64,000 nucleotides of DNA, taken from Flammeovirgaceae bacterium BBD 1991-12 (GTDB lineage: Bacteria; Bacteroidota; Bacteroidia; Cytophagales; Cyclobacteriaceae). Position numbers and translations under genes: made by a program. Within the stretch, counting starts at the first letter, position 1. Each line of letters opens with the position of its first letter. Shown here piece by piece: positions 3,313-57,682 of the stretch. The stretch is from contig LYSV01000010.1 in assembly GCA_001657315.1 (NCBI GenBank), positions 54,199 to 118,198 on the forward strand, given 5' to 3'. The notes beneath the pieces are model-generated. The model was not told where the DNA came from. It ran no database searches and saw nothing but the letters and a program-made list of their open reading frames with translations.

Positions 3313-3425
3313 CCGGCATAGGGCATAGAGCATAGCGCTTGGCGTATGTCCTGTTTAGGATTAGAACTTAAAGCTGAATATCTACACTCCCTACGCTATG
3401 CCCCATGCGCCAGGCCCTATGCCCT
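3313..3425. repeat. Inverted repeat with 7-bp words (GGCATAG), abuts stop of EamA transporter
   Basis: Left arm CGGCATA GGGCATA GAGCATA GCGCTTG GCGTATG; reverse complement of right arm GGGCATA GGGCCTG GCGCATG GGGCATA GCGTAGG. Confidence 0.75.
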
Positions 3426-5559: not shown

Positions 5560-5593
5560 GTCATGGATGGTTATGGGTATCTAATATTAGCGC

Positions 5594-5630
5594 TTTGAAC
5601 ATTCAACTTTGAATATTCAACACTGAACCC
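5594..5630. repeat. Single-arm 7-bp periodic repeat (TTGAACA/TTCAACT words)
   Basis: TTGAACA TTCAACT TTGAATA TTCAACA CTGAACC. Confidence 0.6.
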
Positions 5631-13983: not shown

Positions 13984-14088
13984 AGTTCAATGTTCTACGT
14001 TTGAAGTTCAATGATTTAGCGTTCTATAAACATTGAATAATGAATATTGAACGTAGAACGTAGAACTTAGAACATTGAACTTTCAACC
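13984..14088. repeat. Inverted repeat with 7-bp words (GTTCTAC/GTTCAAT), abuts exonuclease stop
   Basis: Left AGTTCAATGTTCTACGTTTGAAGTTCAATG; reverse complement of right AGTTCAATGTTCTAAGTTCTACGTTCTACGTTCAATATTCATTATTCAATG. Confidence 0.8.
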
Positions 14089-32061: not shown

Positions 32062-32151
32062 AGTTCAAAGTGGTGGAAAGTTCAATATTTAATGTTCAAT
32101 GTTCTCAGCACTTCAACCTTCAACTTCGAACCTTGAACTTTGAACATTAAG
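32062..32151. repeat. Inverted repeat with 7-bp words (GTTCAAT/GTTCAAA), abuts acetoacetyl-CoA synthetase stop
   Basis: Left GTTCAAT ATTTAAT GTTCAAT GTTCTCA; reverse complement of right TGTTCAA AGTTCAA GGTTCGA AGTTGAA GGTTGAA. Confidence 0.8.
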
Positions 32152-42718: not shown

Positions 42719-43768
42719 TTATTTTACCCTTACCTCAAATAGTCCGTCTGAGTCTGCTGCACCGCAGAACATACCGTTGGTGTTATAACCAAGGTAAGTG
42801 TTGCCCCACTTGTCCACCCCTATGATCCCACCGTCGCCGGGTTTCAGCCTTTGCTGCAATACAGTATCAACAGCCGCCTGAAGCGAAAGCCCCTGGTAGC
42901 GTATGAGCGAAGATACCTGTACAGAAACGGTATGGCGGATAAACTCTTCGCCTTTTCCGGTGCAGGAAATTGCACATGAATGGTTATTGGCATAGGTAGC
43001 TGCCCCTATGACCGGTGAATCGCCAATCCGGCCGTGTTGTTTGCCGGTACCCCCGCCGGTGGATGTACCGGCAGCCAGGTTTCCATAACTGTCCAGCGCG
43101 GCCACCCCTACAGTTCCGTAGAAAGAGTCTCGTGCCGTTTCCGGACCACATGTGATGCAGCTCAATGCAGTCTCCTGCATTTTTTCTTCCAGTGCTGCTT
43201 TCTTCTCTTCTGTGGTAAAGAAATCATTTTCCACTCTTTCAAGATCGCTCTGGCGATCAGCAAATTCCTCTGCTCCAGTGTTCCAGAAAAAAACATGCTT
43301 TGAGCTGTCCATCACTCTTCTGGCCAGTGATATTGGATGCCTTACAGTGGTTACGCCTGTTATAGCGCCTATTCCCAGGGTCTTTCCATCCATGATAGAG
43401 GCATCAAGCTCATGTTTTCTCTCAGTAGTAAGGGAGGCTCCCTTACCAGCGTTGAACTCCGGATGGTCTTCCAGGTACCTGATCACCTGCTCCACCGCAT
43501 CGATACCTGTTCCATTCTCTTCCAGTATTTTTTTACCGATCCGGAGCGCTTCCCTCAGGCCTTCTTCGTGAGCTTCCAGCTTTTCCTGAGACATGGTTAG
43601 CGGATCGCTGATCCCACCATGGATAACCAGGGCGTATTTCTTTCTGGCAGTTATCTTTTCTGGCGATTGTGTTGTTTGGTCTGTGGTATCACAGGCCAGT
43701 ATAGAAACAGCAAGGCTGAAGATACAGAGGTATTTCATGACGTTCTTTTTTGGTAAAGCTAAATTCAA
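42719..43768 (-). CDS. Isoaspartyl peptidase/L-asparaginase (Ntn hydrolase)
   Basis: GTVGVAALDSYGNLAAGTSTGGGTGKQHGRIGDSPVIGAATYA. Confidence 0.95.
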   Translation of the reverse strand: MNLALPKKNVMKYLCIFSLAVSILACDTTDQTTQSPEKITARKKYALVIHGGISDPLTMSQEKLEAHEEGLREALRIGKKILEENGTGIDAVEQVIRYLEDHPEFNAGKGASLTTERKHELDASIMDGKTLGIGAITGVTTVRHPISLARRVMDSSKHVFFWNTGAEEFADRQSDLERVENDFFTTEEKKAALEEKMQETALSCITCGPETARDSFYGTVGVAALDSYGNLAAGTSTGGGTGKQHGRIGDSPVIGAATYANNHSCAISCTGKGEEFIRHTVSVQVSSLIRYQGLSLQAAVDTVLQQRLKPGDGGIIGVDKWGNTYLGYNTNGMFCGAADSDGLFEVRVK

Positions 43769-43821
43769 ATGTCACACCGGGCAAATAAGGCGATCTTTAA
43801 AATTGCTTACAACTGCCGGGC

Positions 43822-44307
43822 TCAGCCAATGATAAACATTTGCTGAAGAGACTTCCATAGTTGCCTTTTTTTGTTTTGATCGAGCTGCAATTGCTCCAGA
43901 GTGTCTGAAATAAGGATTGTTTTACCCTGAAACGACATAGGGGAATATGGCGGAGGGGGCTGCTGTATCACAGTTTGGCCAGGATAGAATACGAGAATTT
44001 TATTGGCAGTGGCTGAAAGAAGCATGGTCTCGTTCACGTCATTATTAGCCATATTGAGTAGGGCCACATCCTCTTCATGTACCTTTACTGCTCCCAGGAT
44101 TTTATGAAGAAACTGTTCCTGTTCCTGATCAATGTGACTGTGGTGCTCATCATATACGAGAACAAGTACGCTCCCTGCTGCATTACCTTTAAACTGAGTA
44201 TCCCGGGAGGGCTCTGTTTCCAATGGAATTGGCTGAGGCTCTTCATTTTCAGGAATAATGTACAGCTCCTCAGTAATAAAGTGTTTCAATGCGTCAGGCC
44301 TGATCAT
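43822..44307 (-). CDS. Hypothetical protein
   Basis: Start placed at MIRPDALKHFI, 14-nt overlap with upstream thioesterase gene. Confidence 0.6.
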   Translation of the reverse strand: MIRPDALKHFITEELYIIPENEEPQPIPLETEPSRDTQFKGNAAGSVLVLVYDEHHSHIDQEQEQFLHKILGAVKVHEEDVALLNMANNDVNETMLLSATANKILVFYPGQTVIQQPPPPYSPMSFQGKTILISDTLEQLQLDQNKKRQLWKSLQQMFIIG

Positions 44308-44836
44308 CGGTTCCGTTGGTAAGGTTAAACAAAGATTTAAGCTCGCTGGCATCTTCCGGTTTCATGCGTCCGGCCAGCACCAGCCGCAATTGTCTCCTCC
44401 TGAGTGCACCATCGTACAGTTCTTTTTCTTCTTCAGTTTCCGGTACCACCTCCGGTACATCAATGGGCCGGCCGCTCTGATCCACCGCCACGAATGTGAA
44501 AAAGGCGCTGTTACTGGCAAATTTTTTCCCACTGGGGATATCCTCTGCTTCTACATCTATTCTTACTTCCATGGATGAACTGAAAGCACGTGTCACACGG
44601 GCTTTTAATGTAACTACATTACCTAACTGGATCGCCTTGCTGAAGGAAACATTATCCACAGAGGCTGTGACCACTATTCTGTTGGAATGTTTTTGTGCCG
44701 CAATGGCCGAAACAATGTCCATCCAATGCATGAGCCTGCCTCCCATAAGATTGTTCAGCGTGTTGGTATCGTTAGGCAGCACGAGCTCCGTCATGGTGAC
44801 GTAGGAATCATTGACTTGTTTTTTTTTCTTTGACAT
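44294..44836 (-). CDS. Acyl-CoA thioesterase (hotdog, cytosolic type)
   Basis: NTLNNLMGGRLMHWMDIVSAIAAQKHS...VTASVDNVSF. Confidence 0.92.
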   Translation of the reverse strand: MSKKKKQVNDSYVTMTELVLPNDTNTLNNLMGGRLMHWMDIVSAIAAQKHSNRIVVTASVDNVSFSKAIQLGNVVTLKARVTRAFSSSMEVRIDVEAEDIPSGKKFASNSAFFTFVAVDQSGRPIDVPEVVPETEEEKELYDGALRRRQLRLVLAGRMKPEDASELKSLFNLTNGTDDQA

Positions 44837-44837
44837 G

Positions 44838-44886
44838 GGTTGGAAGTTAGAAGTTAGAAGCTGGAAATTAGAAGTTAGAAGTTTGA
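44838..44886. repeat. Left arm of 7-bp periodic inverted repeat flanking the four-helix-bundle gene
   Basis: GGGTTGGAAGTTAGAAGTTAGAAGCTGGAAATTAGAAGTTAGAAGTTTG. Confidence 0.85.
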
Positions 44887-44895
44887 TATTGATGT

Positions 44896-45258
44896 TTAGA
44901 ATTTTTTCCAGTTTTGATGAAGTCGCGTCAGCATTTTTCCGATTGTATCAAGTTCTTCATTGTATTTCGTGAATTTTTCCTCCGAGATATAACCACAATC
45001 TTTAGCGAATGAAACCCAGTTTTCAGTCTCATGGCATGATCCAAGTGAGTCTATAAGATGCCTCTTGAATAGGTTCTCATATTCTCTTTTTGCCCATCCT
45101 TCAACAATATTACTACTTATTGATCTTGACGAACTGGTAATCTGGGATGTAAGAGAGTACAATTCTTCCCTTGGGAAATTTCTGGAAGCTTTGAAAATAT
45201 CCATTGCCAGTTGATAAGCTTTTTGGTGTACCTCCAGATCTTTGTATGACTTAATCAT
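44896..45258 (-). CDS. Four helix bundle protein (S23 / 23S rRNA-intervening-sequence protein family)
   Basis: KSYKDLEVHQKAYQLAMDIFKASRNFPREELYSLTSQITSSSRSISSNIVEGWAKR. Confidence 0.93.
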   Translation of the reverse strand: MIKSYKDLEVHQKAYQLAMDIFKASRNFPREELYSLTSQITSSSRSISSNIVEGWAKREYENLFKRHLIDSLGSCHETENWVSFAKDCGYISEEKFTKYNEELDTIGKMLTRLHQNWKKF

Positions 45259-45303
45259 TGTTAACGTTTATAGCTTAAATAAGGTCCTGTTCCCTCTCAT
45301 TCT

Positions 45304-45346
45304 TTCCAGTTTCTAACCTCTAACTTCCAGCTTCCAACTTCCAAAA
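45304..45346. repeat. Right arm of 7-bp periodic inverted repeat flanking the four-helix-bundle gene
   Basis: TTCCAGTTTCTAACCTCTAACTTCCAGCTTCCAACTTCCAAAA; reverse complement aligns with left arm with a one-unit (7 bp) gap. Confidence 0.85.
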
Positions 45347-45348
45347 CC

Positions 45349-45999
45349 CTATCCCTTCCATCCTTCATCCCCAAGCAAAGGTACAAAGCTGAAATAGTCG
45401 AAGGTTTCCTTTTTGATTTTTTTGTCGCTTACTTTCGTGAGCCTGAGCATTTGCTGCTTTTTGGAATTCCCTACAGGTATGATCATAATCCCTCCGGGTG
45501 TCAATTGCTGGATCAGGCTGGCAGGGACCGATGGCGCTCCGGCGGTAACGATGATCCTGTCGAAGGGGGCGTGCCTTGGAAGGCCCCGGGACCCATCTCC
45601 ATGGAAGAACCGTGGCTGGTATCCCATAGTGGGGAGGAATTTTCTCGTCCTGTCATATAATACCTTGTTGTATTCTATGGTATAGACCTTCGCGCCCAAT
45701 TCCAGCAGGACACAAGCCTGATATCCCGATCCTGTCCCCACTTCCAGCACTTTATCATCAGGCCTGATCATGAGCATTTCTGACTGGAAAGCCACGGTGT
45801 ACGGCTGAGAGATGGTCTGGCCTTCGCCAATAGGAAAGGCTTTGTCCTGATAGGCATGCTCTATCAGGGCATTGTCAAAGAAATAGTGTCGTGGTATCTT
45901 CCCAATGGCATTCAGTACCGCCGTGTCCCTTATGCCTTTTCCTTTCAATGTTTTCACGAGTTGGCGGCGCATGCCCCTGTGTCGGTAGCTGTCTATCAT
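45349..45999 (-). CDS. pcm: Protein-L-isoaspartate O-methyltransferase
   Basis: AFPIGEGQTISQPYTVAFQSEML; VLEVGTGSGYQACVL. Confidence 0.95.
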   Translation of the reverse strand: MIDSYRHRGMRRQLVKTLKGKGIRDTAVLNAIGKIPRHYFFDNALIEHAYQDKAFPIGEGQTISQPYTVAFQSEMLMIRPDDKVLEVGTGSGYQACVLLELGAKVYTIEYNKVLYDRTRKFLPTMGYQPRFFHGDGSRGLPRHAPFDRIIVTAGAPSVPASLIQQLTPGGIMIIPVGNSKKQQMLRLTKVSDKKIKKETFDYFSFVPLLGDEGWKG

Positions 46000-46098
46000 T
46001 CCATTTGCGAAATTATTACATTCAGGGCAATAAAAGAACTGAGCCCTGCCTGCTAATTTTTTTAGTAAAACATTTGGCGGAATTAATTTAATCCATAA

Positions 46099-46117
46099 TT
46101 TAGTAGCAATTACTAAA
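46099..46117. promoter_or_regulatory. Candidate operator palindrome upstream of XRE/S24 regulator operon
   Basis: Perfect TTTAGTA-gcaat-TACTAAA. Confidence 0.5.
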
Positions 46118-46128
46118 TTAGTTAGTTA

Positions 46129-46398
46129 ATGCGGCAATATAAGCTAAAACTGACAAGCAAACGACTCAGGTCCGGTAAGTGTCAGATCAAATTCTTTGTT
46201 TCATCTACAGAAAGCCAGCAATACTATGGATATTTACTGGCAGAGTCCGGTACTACATTGAAAGAGGTAGTGAGTAAGATTGAAAACAGACTCAGGTCTG
46301 AGGAATGTGGAGATGAATTCCATCAACATTTGTATAATTTAGCACAAAAACCTACCCGGGAAGATCGTATTCTAATGTTTAATTATTTCAGCTCATGA
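46129..46398 (+). CDS. Hypothetical 89-aa protein
   Basis: ATGA stop/start overlap with downstream regulator. Confidence 0.65.
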   Translation: MRQYKLKLTSKRLRSGKCQIKFFVSSTESQQYYGYLLAESGTTLKEVVSKIENRLRSEECGDEFHQHLYNLAQKPTREDRILMFNYFSS

Positions 46399-47189
46399 GC
46401 CGTATCAGTGAAAATATCAAGTATCTGCGTAAGAAAACGGGCCTGACACAGGAGCAGTTTGCAGAAAGCATAGGTATTAAAAGGTCTCTGGTCGGGGCCT
46501 ATGAAGAGGCGCGTGCTGACCCACGGATCAGCAATCTTATCAAAATGGCGGAGCTCTTTGGCACTTCAGTAGACATATTGATCAACAAGGATGTCATGAA
46601 ACTTTCGGAGGCTGAACTGCTCACCAGTGAATTTAAGCGTGGAAAAGAAATACTGGCGATCACTGTAAACGACGAGGGTAGGGAGAATATAGAACTGGTT
46701 CCTCAAAAGGCGGCGGCAGGGTATCTTAACGGATACTCAGACCCTGAATATATTCAGGAGCTTCCCAAATTCAAACTTCCCATACTTCCTACCAATGCTA
46801 CCTACCGGGCCTTTGAGATAACAGGTGATTCCATGCTTCCAATCCTGCCGGGCACTATTATTATAGGGGAGTTTGTGGAAGATGTGAGGGATATTAAGAA
46901 CGGTAAGACCTATGTGCTTGTAACAGCGTCCGAAGGGATTGTCTATAAACGAGTGTTTAACTACATACAGGACAGTGGAAAGCTCTTTCTGGTCTCTGAC
47001 AACCGGCAGTATGCTCCCTATCAGATTGATATGGAAGATGTGCTGGAGGTCTGGTCCAGCAAGGCCTACATAAGTGTCCGGTTTCCGGATGCAAATGAAT
47101 CGAAAGAAGTATCTACTGAGCAGCTGGCTTCCATTGTGCTTGACCTGCAGAAAGAAATTGTGAAGCTGAAGGAAGAAAAGTCCGGTTAG
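46395..47189 (+). CDS. XRE-type HTH / S24 LexA-like regulator
   Basis: HTH ENIKYLRKKTGLTQEQFAESIGIKRSLVGAYE; S24 serine in ITGDSMLPIL, lysine in VYKRVF; upstream AAAGY. Confidence 0.9.
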   Translation: MSRISENIKYLRKKTGLTQEQFAESIGIKRSLVGAYEEARADPRISNLIKMAELFGTSVDILINKDVMKLSEAELLTSEFKRGKEILAITVNDEGRENIELVPQKAAAGYLNGYSDPEYIQELPKFKLPILPTNATYRAFEITGDSMLPILPGTIIIGEFVEDVRDIKNGKTYVLVTASEGIVYKRVFNYIQDSGKLFLVSDNRQYAPYQIDMEDVLEVWSSKAYISVRFPDANESKEVSTEQLASIVLDLQKEIVKLKEEKSG

Positions 47190-47284
47190 TAATTTCAAAT
47201 ACACTATGGCGGGTTTTCCCGTACACGATACCCTGTGAATATTCTTTTTTAAATTCCACATCCGGGATTGGACACTTTATGCTC

Positions 47285-47480
47285 TCAAAGGAATCCTGTC
47301 AGAGGATTGCTGAGCAGTTTGTTGTGATACTGATAGATCGGCTCGGGGTAATTCATATCACTGAAGACAAATCTTCTCTTAGCTGCTGTTTTCCAACCTT
47401 CAGGGTTTTTCAAGGGTCTTATTCAGGAAGGTAGGCCCATATTTTACCGTGAAGTACTCCGGTATCTTCATGATGGACAT
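47285..47480 (-). pseudogene. Possible frameshifted small ORF remnant
   Basis: MSIMKIPEYFTVKYGPTFLNKTLE // NPEGWKTAAKRRFVFSDMNYPEPIYQYHNKLLSNPLTGFL* joined across an AAAAA run. Confidence 0.4.
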
Positions 47481-47524
47481 ATTGGGATACCCTTTTTAAT
47501 TGTACTTAACAAGTTTAAGAACCC

Positions 47525-49212: not shown

Positions 49213-51777
49213 ATGGTACCCAACCAGGATCGATCTTCAGGAATGAAGGCCAAGGTGATCCTTTCGTTCACTCTGGCTATGGCAACGTTCGTGACGTTGG
49301 GTTTCCTTGCCTACGCAAGTTTTGATAAACTGCTTGGTGCCGTTCACCAGATATCGAAACCTAACGACAGGTCCAAAAATATGAATGCGATTGTCATGCA
49401 CCTCTCAGAAGCAGAGAGCAGCATGAGGGCCTATTCTCTTTCCCGCGACTGGAAGTATTACAAACGCTACCTGAGTGAAGTAGCTCATGTTAATACACTT
49501 GCAGAAGGACTTATGCAATCGGATTGGCATGACAGGGTAGAGCCGTCCAGACTGGATTCCATTTCCGTGCTCCTGAATCAAAAGATCATTAAGCTGCAGG
49601 ACTTTTTAAGCAGAAAAAGCAGGGCCAATATCATGTACAGCCAGAAGGCGCTGGAGCAGTTGGACGAGAACGTACTGGACTCCACTACCCTCACCACCAT
49701 TTCCAAAGTAACGTCCACGGAAAGCAGATCCGTGGATACACTTCTTGTATACAGACCGGTACAGGATATTGAAAAAGCCGAGGGCATCTTCAACAAGATA
49801 AAAAAGCTGCTTTCCAAAAAGGAGCCGGTAGAAACATCTGTAGATACCATAACACGCATCACACACGAGACCAAATATGAATATGATACGAACCAGATAA
49901 TCCAGCCGGATACGCTCATCCTGAATGAGGTAAAGCAGATCCTGCAGGCCATCCGGGAAGAAGAATACAATCACCATCGTCGTGAGGTAATGAAGGAAAT
50001 GGAATTACTGGAGGCCAATTCTGTGATCATAAATCAGGTAAAGCAGATAATAAAAGAACTTGAGGACTCCGAGAGTAGCTATTATACTCAACAAAAAGCC
50101 GAAGCGCAGGCTATTGTCAGAGATCATCTCACAGTGATCGTTTTCATCATTGCGCTGGCGTTCCTGGGGTGCTTCATTTGTATTCTACTCATATTTGGTG
50201 ATATCTCCAGAAGCAATTTTTACAAAGGCAGGCTGGAAAAAGCAAAATCACGGGCCGAAAAACTGGCCCGGACACGCGAGCAATTCCTTGCCAATGTCAG
50301 TCATGAACTGCGTACCCCGCTCAACGCTATCACTGGATTTACAGAGCAACTGTCAGGTACGGATCTGTCGCCGAGGCAGGGTTCCTACCTTTCCATAATC
50401 AGTAATTCGTCCCGTCATCTCCTTTCTCTGGTAAATGATATTCTCGATATGTCCAAGATCGAAGCAGGTGGATTTGAGCTGAATGAGACACCTTTTGATC
50501 TGAGAGAGATCGTGGAGGAGACCTATCAGACCTTTAAAGCACGGGGAGCTCGCAAGGACCTTCAGGTATGCATGGAGATACCAGAGGATCTTCATACCCT
50601 GCTCTTTGGAGATGGTGTGAGACTGAAGCAGGTTTTGTTCAATATCATGGATAATGCCATAAAATTTACTGACCGGGGTGAGGTGAAAATTGAGATCACA
50701 CAGCAGCAAAAAGGAGAGCACTGGATGCAAATGGAATTCAGGATCAGCGACAGTGGATCAGGCATACCGGAAAATCAACAGCACAGGATCTTCAATAATT
50801 TCTATCAGGGTGATGGCACCCGTACAAAGAAGCACCTGGGCGCCGGTCTGGGGCTCGCTATATCCCAGCGGATCATTAAAGCAATGGGTGGTGAAATAGA
50901 GGTGGAAAGTCAGGTCAATATAGGTACTACGTTTACCATCAAGGTAAGATTTGCGCCGTTGGATCGTATTTCGGAGGATATACAGGAAAATGAGGTGAAG
51001 ATCTCTGAGCGTTTTAGTAAAATGAGGATCCTGATCATTGATGATGATCATTTCAATTGCACACTGCTGCAAACCATTCTTGGGGATATAGTGCAGCAAC
51101 TGGAATGTGCCAGTAATGCGCGTGAAGGACTGCGTCATTTGAAAAAATCGATCTACGATCTGGTACTAACGGACATTCATATGCCTGAAATGGACGGCAT
51201 CACATTACTGAAGAGGGTCCGTGCCCTTGATTCGCGTAATCAGAATGTACCTGTTGTGGCCATCACAGCGGATGGTACCCGGTCAAAAGAACAATGGGTG
51301 GAACAAAATGGGTTTCACGACCATATTACCAAACCTTTCAGGCAAAAGACACTCCTGGCAACCATTTCCAGGATAGTGGATCAGGATAATGTGACGCTGG
51401 TTACAAATGTAAAAGAAGACGTTACCATCAATCTGAAAACGCTGTCAGTATTTGCCGGAGGCAACACCGCTACCCTGATCAATTTACTGGAGGTATTTCA
51501 TCAAAATGCCGTTACCGATCTGGATACCTTACAACTCCTGTACAAAGAAAAACGGTTTGATGAATTTAAGGAGCAGGCCCATAAAATGATCTCCCCGTTC
51601 GCACAATTAGGGATTGATGAAGTGGTAAAGCTTTTAAGACAGATCGAACGAAAAGAAAAAGCTGATGTCCGGAACTCCAGTGAAATAGATCATCTGACCA
51701 CCATGATAAAAGAATCCCTGCATTTGGTGCAGGAGAAGATCAGGGACCTGAAAAAACAAAATCAGGTTCCTGTTTAG
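49213..51777 (+). CDS. Hybrid sensor histidine kinase (TM, HisKA, HATPase, REC, Hpt-like)
   Basis: FLANVSHELRTPLNAI; GAGLGLAISQRIIKAMGG; ILIIDDD/VLTDIHMPEMDG; C-terminal Hpt-like KEQAHKM. Confidence 0.95.
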   Translation: MVPNQDRSSGMKAKVILSFTLAMATFVTLGFLAYASFDKLLGAVHQISKPNDRSKNMNAIVMHLSEAESSMRAYSLSRDWKYYKRYLSEVAHVNTLAEGLMQSDWHDRVEPSRLDSISVLLNQKIIKLQDFLSRKSRANIMYSQKALEQLDENVLDSTTLTTISKVTSTESRSVDTLLVYRPVQDIEKAEGIFNKIKKLLSKKEPVETSVDTITRITHETKYEYDTNQIIQPDTLILNEVKQILQAIREEEYNHHRREVMKEMELLEANSVIINQVKQIIKELEDSESSYYTQQKAEAQAIVRDHLTVIVFIIALAFLGCFICILLIFGDISRSNFYKGRLEKAKSRAEKLARTREQFLANVSHELRTPLNAITGFTEQLSGTDLSPRQGSYLSIISNSSRHLLSLVNDILDMSKIEAGGFELNETPFDLREIVEETYQTFKARGARKDLQVCMEIPEDLHTLLFGDGVRLKQVLFNIMDNAIKFTDRGEVKIEITQQQKGEHWMQMEFRISDSGSGIPENQQHRIFNNFYQGDGTRTKKHLGAGLGLAISQRIIKAMGGEIEVESQVNIGTTFTIKVRFAPLDRISEDIQENEVKISERFSKMRILIIDDDHFNCTLLQTILGDIVQQLECASNAREGLRHLKKSIYDLVLTDIHMPEMDGITLLKRVRALDSRNQNVPVVAITADGTRSKEQWVEQNGFHDHITKPFRQKTLLATISRIVDQDNVTLVTNVKEDVTINLKTLSVFAGGNTATLINLLEVFHQNAVTDLDTLQLLYKEKRFDEFKEQAHKMISPFAQLGIDEVVKLLRQIERKEKADVRNSSEIDHLTTMIKESLHLVQEKIRDLKKQNQVPV

Positions 51778-51864
51778 ATGTTCGAAGTTCTATGTTCTAT
51801 GTTCAAAGTTCAAAGTATGTTATCTGCATAGAATTAAGAACTTCGAACATAGAACATAGAACCA
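51778..51864. repeat. Inverted repeat with 7-bp words (GTTCTAT) filling the whole intergenic gap
   Basis: Left TGTTCGA AGTTCTA TGTTCTA TGTTCAA AGTTCAA; reverse complement of right GGTTCTA TGTTCTA TGTTCGA AGTTCTT AATTCTA. Confidence 0.9.
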
Positions 51865-56238: not shown

Positions 56239-56359
56239 AGGCTGTTACTGGTTTCTGGTTTCTGGTCACTGGATGCTGGTATCTGGTTTTAACTTGTAGT
56301 ATTTATGGAACCAGAAACACGAGTATCAAGCAACCAGCGACCAGCAACCAGTCTCCAGA
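56239..56359. repeat. Inverted repeat with 7-bp words (CTGGTTT) filling the whole intergenic gap
   Basis: Left CTGGTTT CTGGTTT CTGGTCA CTGGATG CTGGTAT CTGGTTT; reverse complement of right CTGGAGA CTGGTTG CTGGTCG CTGGTTG. Confidence 0.9.
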
Positions 56360-57682
56360 CTATCCAAGAAAACTCAGCAATATACCCGCGGCTACGGCGC
56401 TGCCAATTACTCCGGAAACATTGGGTGCCATGGCATGCATGAGCAGGTGGTTGCTGGAATTGTACTTTAGTCCTTCATGTTGCACCACTCTGGCGCTGTC
56501 AGGAACTGCCGATACTCCGGCCGCTCCGATCAACGGATTGATCTTGTTGTCACCTTTCAAAAACAGGTTCATAAGCTTGGCAAATAACAGTCCTCCCGTG
56601 GTGGCTACCACAAATGATCCTGCCCCAAGGAAGAATATCTTTAGTGAATCGATAGTAAGGAACACATCTGCCTGAGTGGAGGCCCCTACCGTCACTCCGA
56701 GTAAAATGGTGACAATATCGATCATTTTGGTCCGGGCCGTATCTGCCAGCCGTTCCGTTCTGCCAGACTCCTTGAGTATGTTCCCGAAGAAGAGCATACC
56801 TAACAAGGGCAGTGCGGAGGGGGCGATGAAAGTGGTAAGGAGTAGCCCTATGATCGGGAAAAATATCTTTTCCTTCTTGGATACCGCACGGGGGGGCTTC
56901 ATTTTGATCGTTCTTTCTTTTTTACTGATCAAAAGGCGCATAATAGGAGGCTGGATCACAGGTACCAGTGCCATATAGGAGTAAGCCGCTATCGCGATCG
57001 GGCCGATCAGGTTTTGGGTATTGTTCAGTCCATTGGCCAGCTTGGAGGAAAGGAATATGGCTGTAGGACCATCCGCGCCGCCGATTATGCCGATAGCCCC
57101 GGATTCCTGCAGGCTGAACCCCAGCGCAATAGCCCCAATAAAAGTCAGGAATACACCGATCTGAGCCGCTGCGCCAAGTAACATAAGCTTAGGGTTGGAA
57201 ATCAGTGATGAAAAATCAGTCATGGCACCTATCCCCAGAAATATAAGGGGAGGGTAGATCCCTTTCACCACCCCAAAGTAAAGATAATTCAATACCGAGC
57301 CGGATTCATAAATACCGATCTGGTTGCCGGCTATGAAAGGAATATTCCCGATCAATATCCCTGTGCCAATAGGGATCAGCAGCAGAGGTTCATAATTATA
57401 TTCTATGGCCAGCCATATGAAGAATAATCCCACCACGATCATGATCAGATGGGCAATGGTCAGATTGGCAAAGCCCGTATACCCAAGGAAAATTCTGATG
57501 CCGTCTATGGCATGGCTGATCATACTTTCTTCCCCATCGTTAAGAGGGGTTTGTGTCGAAGCGCTATCAAGCACCTGGGCCAGCGCATAACCACTGACCA
57601 GTACGATCAAAAATGAGATTGCGATGAAAAGATATGATTTTTTTGTTATCATGAGCTTAAATGATTTCGAGCAGTTGGTCAC
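56360..57682 (-). CDS. Sodium-ion-translocating decarboxylase subunit beta
   Basis: GIIGGADGPTAIFLSSKLA; GAAGVSAVPDSARVVQ; OadB/MmdB family. Confidence 0.94.
   Translation of the reverse strand: MTNCSKSFKLMITKKSYLFIAISFLIVLVSGYALAQVLDSASTQTPLNDGEESMISHAIDGIRIFLGYTGFANLTIAHLIMIVVGLFFIWLAIEYNYEPLLLIPIGTGILIGNIPFIAGNQIGIYESGSVLNYLYFGVVKGIYPPLIFLGIGAMTDFSSLISNPKLMLLGAAAQIGVFLTFIGAIALGFSLQESGAIGIIGGADGPTAIFLSSKLANGLNNTQNLIGPIAIAAYSYMALVPVIQPPIMRLLISKKERTIKMKPPRAVSKKEKIFFPIIGLLLTTFIAPSALPLLGMLFFGNILKESGRTERLADTARTKMIDIVTILLGVTVGASTQADVFLTIDSLKIFFLGAGSFVVATTGGLLFAKLMNLFLKGDNKINPLIGAAGVSAVPDSARVVQHEGLKYNSSNHLLMHAMAPNVSGVIGSAVAAGILLSFLG

Follow-up and report, generated by a model that had tools for sequence, protein, structure and literature searches.

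A small gene of the S23 family, enclosed by two inverted arms of tandem 7-bp repeats, fills the gap between two co-directional genes in the 64,000-nucleotide stretch of bacterial DNA analysed here (the window), and the same armed arrangement recurs at S23 loci in the window's own genome and beyond. The arrangement is a general pattern, of which the window locus is no isolated case, and it suggests a type of mobile hairpin element that has not been described before. The reading that we favour, with a probability of about 0.6, is a mobile intercistronic hairpin cassette that has the shape of the intervening sequences (IVSs) of 23S rRNA and follows a logic like that of REP repeats and RAYT proteins, with an S23 protein that probably recognises its own repeats. 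This four-helix-bundle family is widespread in Bacteroidota, and to our knowledge no function has been assigned to it; among open-licence full texts, no literature linking S23 genes to heptad arms was found.

The window locus lies between pcm (PF01135; 45349-45999, minus strand), its upstream neighbour, and a 4HBT thioesterase gene (PF03061; 44294-44836, minus strand), its downstream neighbour, both of which are co-directional with it. The gap between them measures 512 nt, as an earlier note on this DNA had claimed, and holds the single S23-family (PF05635/TIGR02436) open reading frame (ORF) that the note had described; this ORF (44896-45258, minus strand) encodes 120 amino acids and sits in the loop of a hairpin. 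Read along the sense strand, the 5' arm (45311-45349, minus strand) is made of tandem 7-bp repeats and overlaps the pcm stop codon by a single base, the final letter of the codon, while the 3' arm (44837-44880, minus strand) is made of inverted tandem 7-bp repeats and ends immediately 5' of the thioesterase ATG. An inverted-repeat search recovered the arms independently at about 44840-44880 and 45304-45344, and both carry the 7-bp tandem period reported in the note; depending on the register, they match over 27 nt (93%) or over 34 nt (88%). The arm score of the locus, 24.0, exceeds the 99.9th percentile of cross-locus comparisons (20.5), and none of 330 other genes of the window's genome scored above 14.5. 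As RNA, the pcm-thioesterase gap is predicted to fold into a long stem that closes around the ORF and reaches from the stop codon of pcm to the start codon of the thioesterase gene (-139.2 kcal/mol, z -6.2). No rRNA match was found within 43000-47500, and an Rfam scan around the locus gave nothing credible. IVS-type anatomy (stem arms, an S23 ORF in the loop, sense orientation relative to transcription) inside a protein-coding operon is supported.

The encoded protein belongs to the S23 (23S_rRNA_IVP) protein family by curated profile cut-offs (PF05635, 116.6 bits, cut-off 33.8; TIGR02436, 105.7 bits, cut-off 24) and by its four-helix-bundle fold. The predicted structure (mean pLDDT 97) matches S23-family crystal structures (TM 0.88 to 2gsc, 0.80 to 2rld) and, more distantly, Avd on its own and within the ribonucleoprotein of diversity-generating retroelements, DGRs (TM 0.77 to 4dwl, 0.76 to 8ub8), and a Pfam scan of the protein found no nuclease or polymerase domain. 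S23 orthologues are under purifying selection, with dN/dS about 0.04-0.1 and many dS values near saturation. At five loci (L032, L064, L069, L074, L075) the frame of the S23 gene seems to continue into the 3' arm, so that the C-terminal tail would consist of translated heptad repeats.

Arms were scored by comparing each upstream flank with the reverse complement of the downstream flank, the threshold being the 99% level of cross-locus comparisons, at 157 measurable S23 loci drawn from the window's genome, its relatives and a set of named genomes, this last set coming from one closer subfamily. The median arm score was 15.0 at S23 loci against 9.0 for swapped loci (n = 157): arms match within a locus and not between loci. 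The earlier note had named the comparison with control genes beforehand as the test that could refute it, and the idea withstood it, matching inverted arms being found above threshold at 84 of the 157 S23 loci and at 6 of 917 other genes from five genomes, in counts that are not phylogenetically independent, the S23 loci being kin by descent, so that p-values computed from them exaggerate independence. About half of the S23 loci score below the threshold. A match of the flanks in direct orientation passed it at only 18 of the 157 loci, and among control genes with gaps of at least 40 nt on both sides matching arms occurred in 5 of 373. Two of the six arm-bearing control genes resemble transposases, judged from the first 40 translated residues. 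The dominant period was 7 at 87 loci and 8 at 8 loci, with any other period at no more than one locus each. Among named loci, arms scored above threshold at 38 of 63 from Bacteroidota and at 6 of 16 from other phyla, several of the latter being metagenome bins that are perhaps misassigned. The window's genome itself has 11 PF05635 genes; heptad or octad arms, different in sequence at every locus, can be seen by eye at 10 of them, and 5 of the 10 measurable loci passed the strict threshold, compared with none of the 330 other genes.

The repeat tends to be particular to the S23 lineage, and in some subfamilies its period is 8 bp. When 155 S23 proteins are placed on a FastTree phylogeny, many of whose forks are unresolved, period 8 requires 5 changes compared with 7.8 in shuffles (0 of 500 as low). 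Related S23 pairs at sites without homologous flanking proteins have a repeat 4-mer similarity of 0.378, against 0.151 when permuted (0 of 5000 as high), and the CTGGTTN repeat class accompanies one S23 lineage both in a metal-transporter operon and at an unrelated locus in another family.

Repeats of the same classes also occur on their own. A small ORF-less hairpin at 277-319 belongs to the repeat class of the window arms, and the 17-mer at 303-319 that the earlier note had matched to the right arm is indeed identical there; allowing up to 2 mismatches, this 17-mer has 5 matches in the window compared with 0 in 100 dinucleotide shuffles. Two further ORF-less heptad hairpins are related to S23 loci elsewhere in the window's genome, one at 51774-51862 that resembles the arms of L001 and one at 56244-56361 of the CTGGTTN class that is cognate to L007 (no strand is assigned to any of the three). 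Over 464 kb of the window's genome, ORF-less arrays resemble own-genome S23 arms more than GC-matched foreign arms (0.584 vs 0.406, 0 of 1000), and the note's suggestion that loaded and empty copies coexist is borne out by the occurrence of the arms' repeat class elsewhere in the genome without an ORF. The hairpins at 51774-51862 and 56244-56361 each take up nearly the whole of a gap between convergent genes, from one stop codon to the other, and may serve as bidirectional terminators. More heptad arrays lie between co-directional genes (3315-3425, 14029-14087, 32081-32148, 5593-5628); the first of these, of the GGCATAG/CTATGCC class, has poor likeness to own-genome S23 arms (best similarity 0.33). 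Arrays can be mosaics of classes, the TGGAAGT and CTATGCC classes standing close together in L184:852-997 (G000:C222). The density of repeat arrays correlates weakly with the number of S23 genes (rho 0.54, p 0.058, 13 genomes), which is suggestive only, and no array was present in the 100 kb sampled of the S23-rich genome G010.

Both neighbours are co-directional at 126 S23 loci and both are opposite at 8, the corresponding numbers for the 917 control genes being 473 and 107, and the arms directly adjoin the neighbouring genes, with median distances of -3 nt (upstream stop) and 5 nt (downstream start). A recurrent home is an apparent fatty-acid oxidation operon (hydroxyacyl-CoA dehydrogenase, thiolase and acyl-CoA dehydrogenase, genes named from translations and gene lengths without profiles), found in many Bacteroidota genera. 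Pairs of different S23 genes lie about 1.6-1.7 kb apart on the same contig in two genomes (L018 and L042 on G010:C46; L038 and L041 on G016:C32), and a thiolase-length gene adjoins L018 and L038, as though every operon gap had its own S23 gene.

Comparison of relatives, which the earlier note had proposed as a search for empty sites, reveals such sites at the pcm-thioesterase gap: the gene pair is kept in 12 same-genus genomes, none of which has an intact S23 gene there. Six of the 12 gaps are just 9-51 nt long and free of heptad arrays, and ORF-less heptad hairpins are present in the gaps L084 and L087. A candidate S23 remnant in the gap of the closest relative (G012, L082) was discarded as too weak (tblastn E 0.007, with 160 queries tried). 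In a genome of another family (G021), pcm is directly followed by an S23 gene other than the window's, with arms of its own. The S23 lineage of the window occurs elsewhere at 59% (L045) and 55% (L046) identity; judged by names taken from translations, its neighbours in G010 are an RND-type pump gene and an outer-membrane efflux gene, and in G017 it is flanked by transhydrogenase subunit genes. In the close pair G001 and G014, the S23 gene of one site is intact in G001 and reads as internally deleted in G014; at another site, G014 has an S23 gene where G001 has a remnant of the same arm together with a hairpin of a different heptad class. The fatty-acid oxidation and metal-transporter sites appear at least partly vertical, with losses. 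The S23 copies of the window's genome are diverse and give no sign of a recent transposition burst, and no target-site duplication could be defined from the same-genus pcm-thioesterase gaps or the G001/G014 sites.

The anatomy of the cassette is established, as are its recurrence and the co-inheritance of repeat and protein: an S23 gene lies between two inverted arms of short tandem repeats, placed exactly between two operon cistrons and in their direction. We propose that arms and gene move as one unit. The S23 protein, with its Avd-like fold, would recognise the hairpins of its own repeats, in DNA or RNA form, and the ORF-less hairpins would be non-autonomous kin, in the relation that REPINs have to RAYT transposases. 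Because the protein has no recognisable nuclease or polymerase, movement would need host enzymes. Two candidates for a required helper were rejected: reverse transcriptase is absent from some S23-bearing genomes, several S23-rich relatives having no RVT_1 match (the sole match of the window's genome is on contig C200, the window being on C242), and a Y1_Tnp match is absent from the S23-bearing genomes G018 and G024. Paired in the mRNA, the arms would form a stem that encloses the S23 ORF, like those of 23S rRNA IVSs; that stem may be processed, and at the RNA level the cassette may work as an IVS does.

Other explanations give the arms a different role. Slippage-prone heptad repeats might gather in intercistronic gaps where S23 genes happen to live, and heptad arrays are indeed common in the window's genome (about 43-50 per Mb, estimated from genome samples), with strong 7-bp periodicity near 24 of 330 other genes; such a passive association, already disfavoured, is very improbable given the rarity of matching inverted arms at other genes (6 of 917, and 5 of 373 where the gaps are wide), the match of arms within rather than between loci, and the way in which repeat class and period track S23 lineage. 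The S23 gene could instead be an ancient, vertically inherited host regulator resident in operons, whose arms are autoregulatory binding sites and whose presence or absence reflects loss only. Strong purifying selection, the recurrent fatty-acid oxidation site over many genera and decay by deletion at one G001/G014 site fit this account, which we nevertheless consider improbable, since the same gap of the fatty-acid oxidation operon holds different S23 subfamilies within one genus, one S23 lineage occurs in unrelated operons, and repeat classes are swapped at one site between close species.

A more serious rival, though still an unlikely one, is an IVS-like RNA-processing device, in which pairing of the arms within the operon mRNA creates a stem for RNase III to cut, so that the S23 message is freed and the cistrons on either side are parted; the gene would be kept because processing or the protein regulates the operon, and movement would be incidental. 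Experiments on the Coxiella IVS provide a precedent for processing (PMC4990558), the predicted stem runs from stop to start with a z-score of -6.2, S23 genes are sense-oriented within operons, and own arms form more stable RNA duplexes than swapped arms (median -27.8 vs -13.4 kcal/mol), although any inverted repeat would show the same difference. Against it, the arms of 84 loci have no clear excess of G.U pairs over A.C mismatches (153 vs 131), and so give no evidence of selection on RNA pairing; moreover, arm pairing alone explains neither the tandem 7/8-bp units nor the cognate ORF-less arrays, some of which lie in convergent gaps. The earlier note's central proposal, an IVS-like element outside rRNA, is partly supported, by the anatomy, the great excess of arms over controls, the coexisting ORF-less copies and the empty sites; the G.U excess that selected RNA pairing would be expected to leave was not found. 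A G-rich 5' arm, seen at 80 of 83 loci, was rejected as a signature of transcription because any inverted repeat obeys the rule just as well when read on its other strand; it reveals only how the repeat is oriented relative to the interior of the element.

If S23 proteins do read their cognate repeats, dispersed heptad repeats gain an owner and rRNA IVSs a plausible origin, and the link between S23 lineage and repeat, in sequence and period, offers a testable handle on whether the protein reads its cognate repeat hairpin. More tentatively, and with the odds against it, these elements might form a class distinct from insertion sequences, REP/RAYT systems and rRNA IVSs, in which each S23 protein recognises a 7- or 8-bp tandem repeat of its own, arranged in inverted intercistronic pairs, and contributes to generating or spreading it, the 23S rRNA IVS being one branch that landed in rRNA.

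Among known systems, the 23S rRNA IVSs with an S23 ORF (Leptospira, Coxiella; PMC4990558) share with the cassette the inverted arms that close a stem, the sense-oriented ORF in the loop and a sporadic distribution. The cassette, in contrast, lies between protein genes and not at a 23S rRNA helix, and its arms are tandem 7/8-bp repeats that track S23 lineage and have cognate ORF-less repeats elsewhere; it has the terminal inverted repeats, but its position outside any 23S rRNA gene leaves assignment to the rRNA IVS family unsupported. Avd of DGRs shares the fold and gives weak sequence matches to the bAvd and Avd models, but the window protein falls below their cut-offs (32.3 bits vs 80 for NF033474; 35.3 vs 40 for PF22296), and its neighbours are pcm and the thioesterase gene rather than an adjacent reverse transcriptase. 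Tandem 7-bp units in intergenic or intron positions are known from TAACTGA heptamer arrays (PMC4679880), and the P6b stem of the Nostoc tRNA-Leu intron is likewise made of heptads (PMC4476775); the available portions of both accounts mention neither an S23 gene nor a link from repeat class to protein lineage. Set against classical insertion sequences, with their conserved terminal inverted repeats and target-site duplication, the arms are inverted but vary in sequence between loci, and no duplication could be defined. A parallel in logic is offered by REP/REPIN sequences and RAYT (TnpA-REP) proteins (PMC3116915, PMC8266576), where a gene likewise lies between inverted repeats of its own class, ORF-less copies are dispersed and repeat sequence follows protein lineage; the Y1 HUH transposase of RAYT is replaced in the cassette by an S23 four-helix bundle, and the cassette differs further in its tandem heptad arms and its sense placement within operons.
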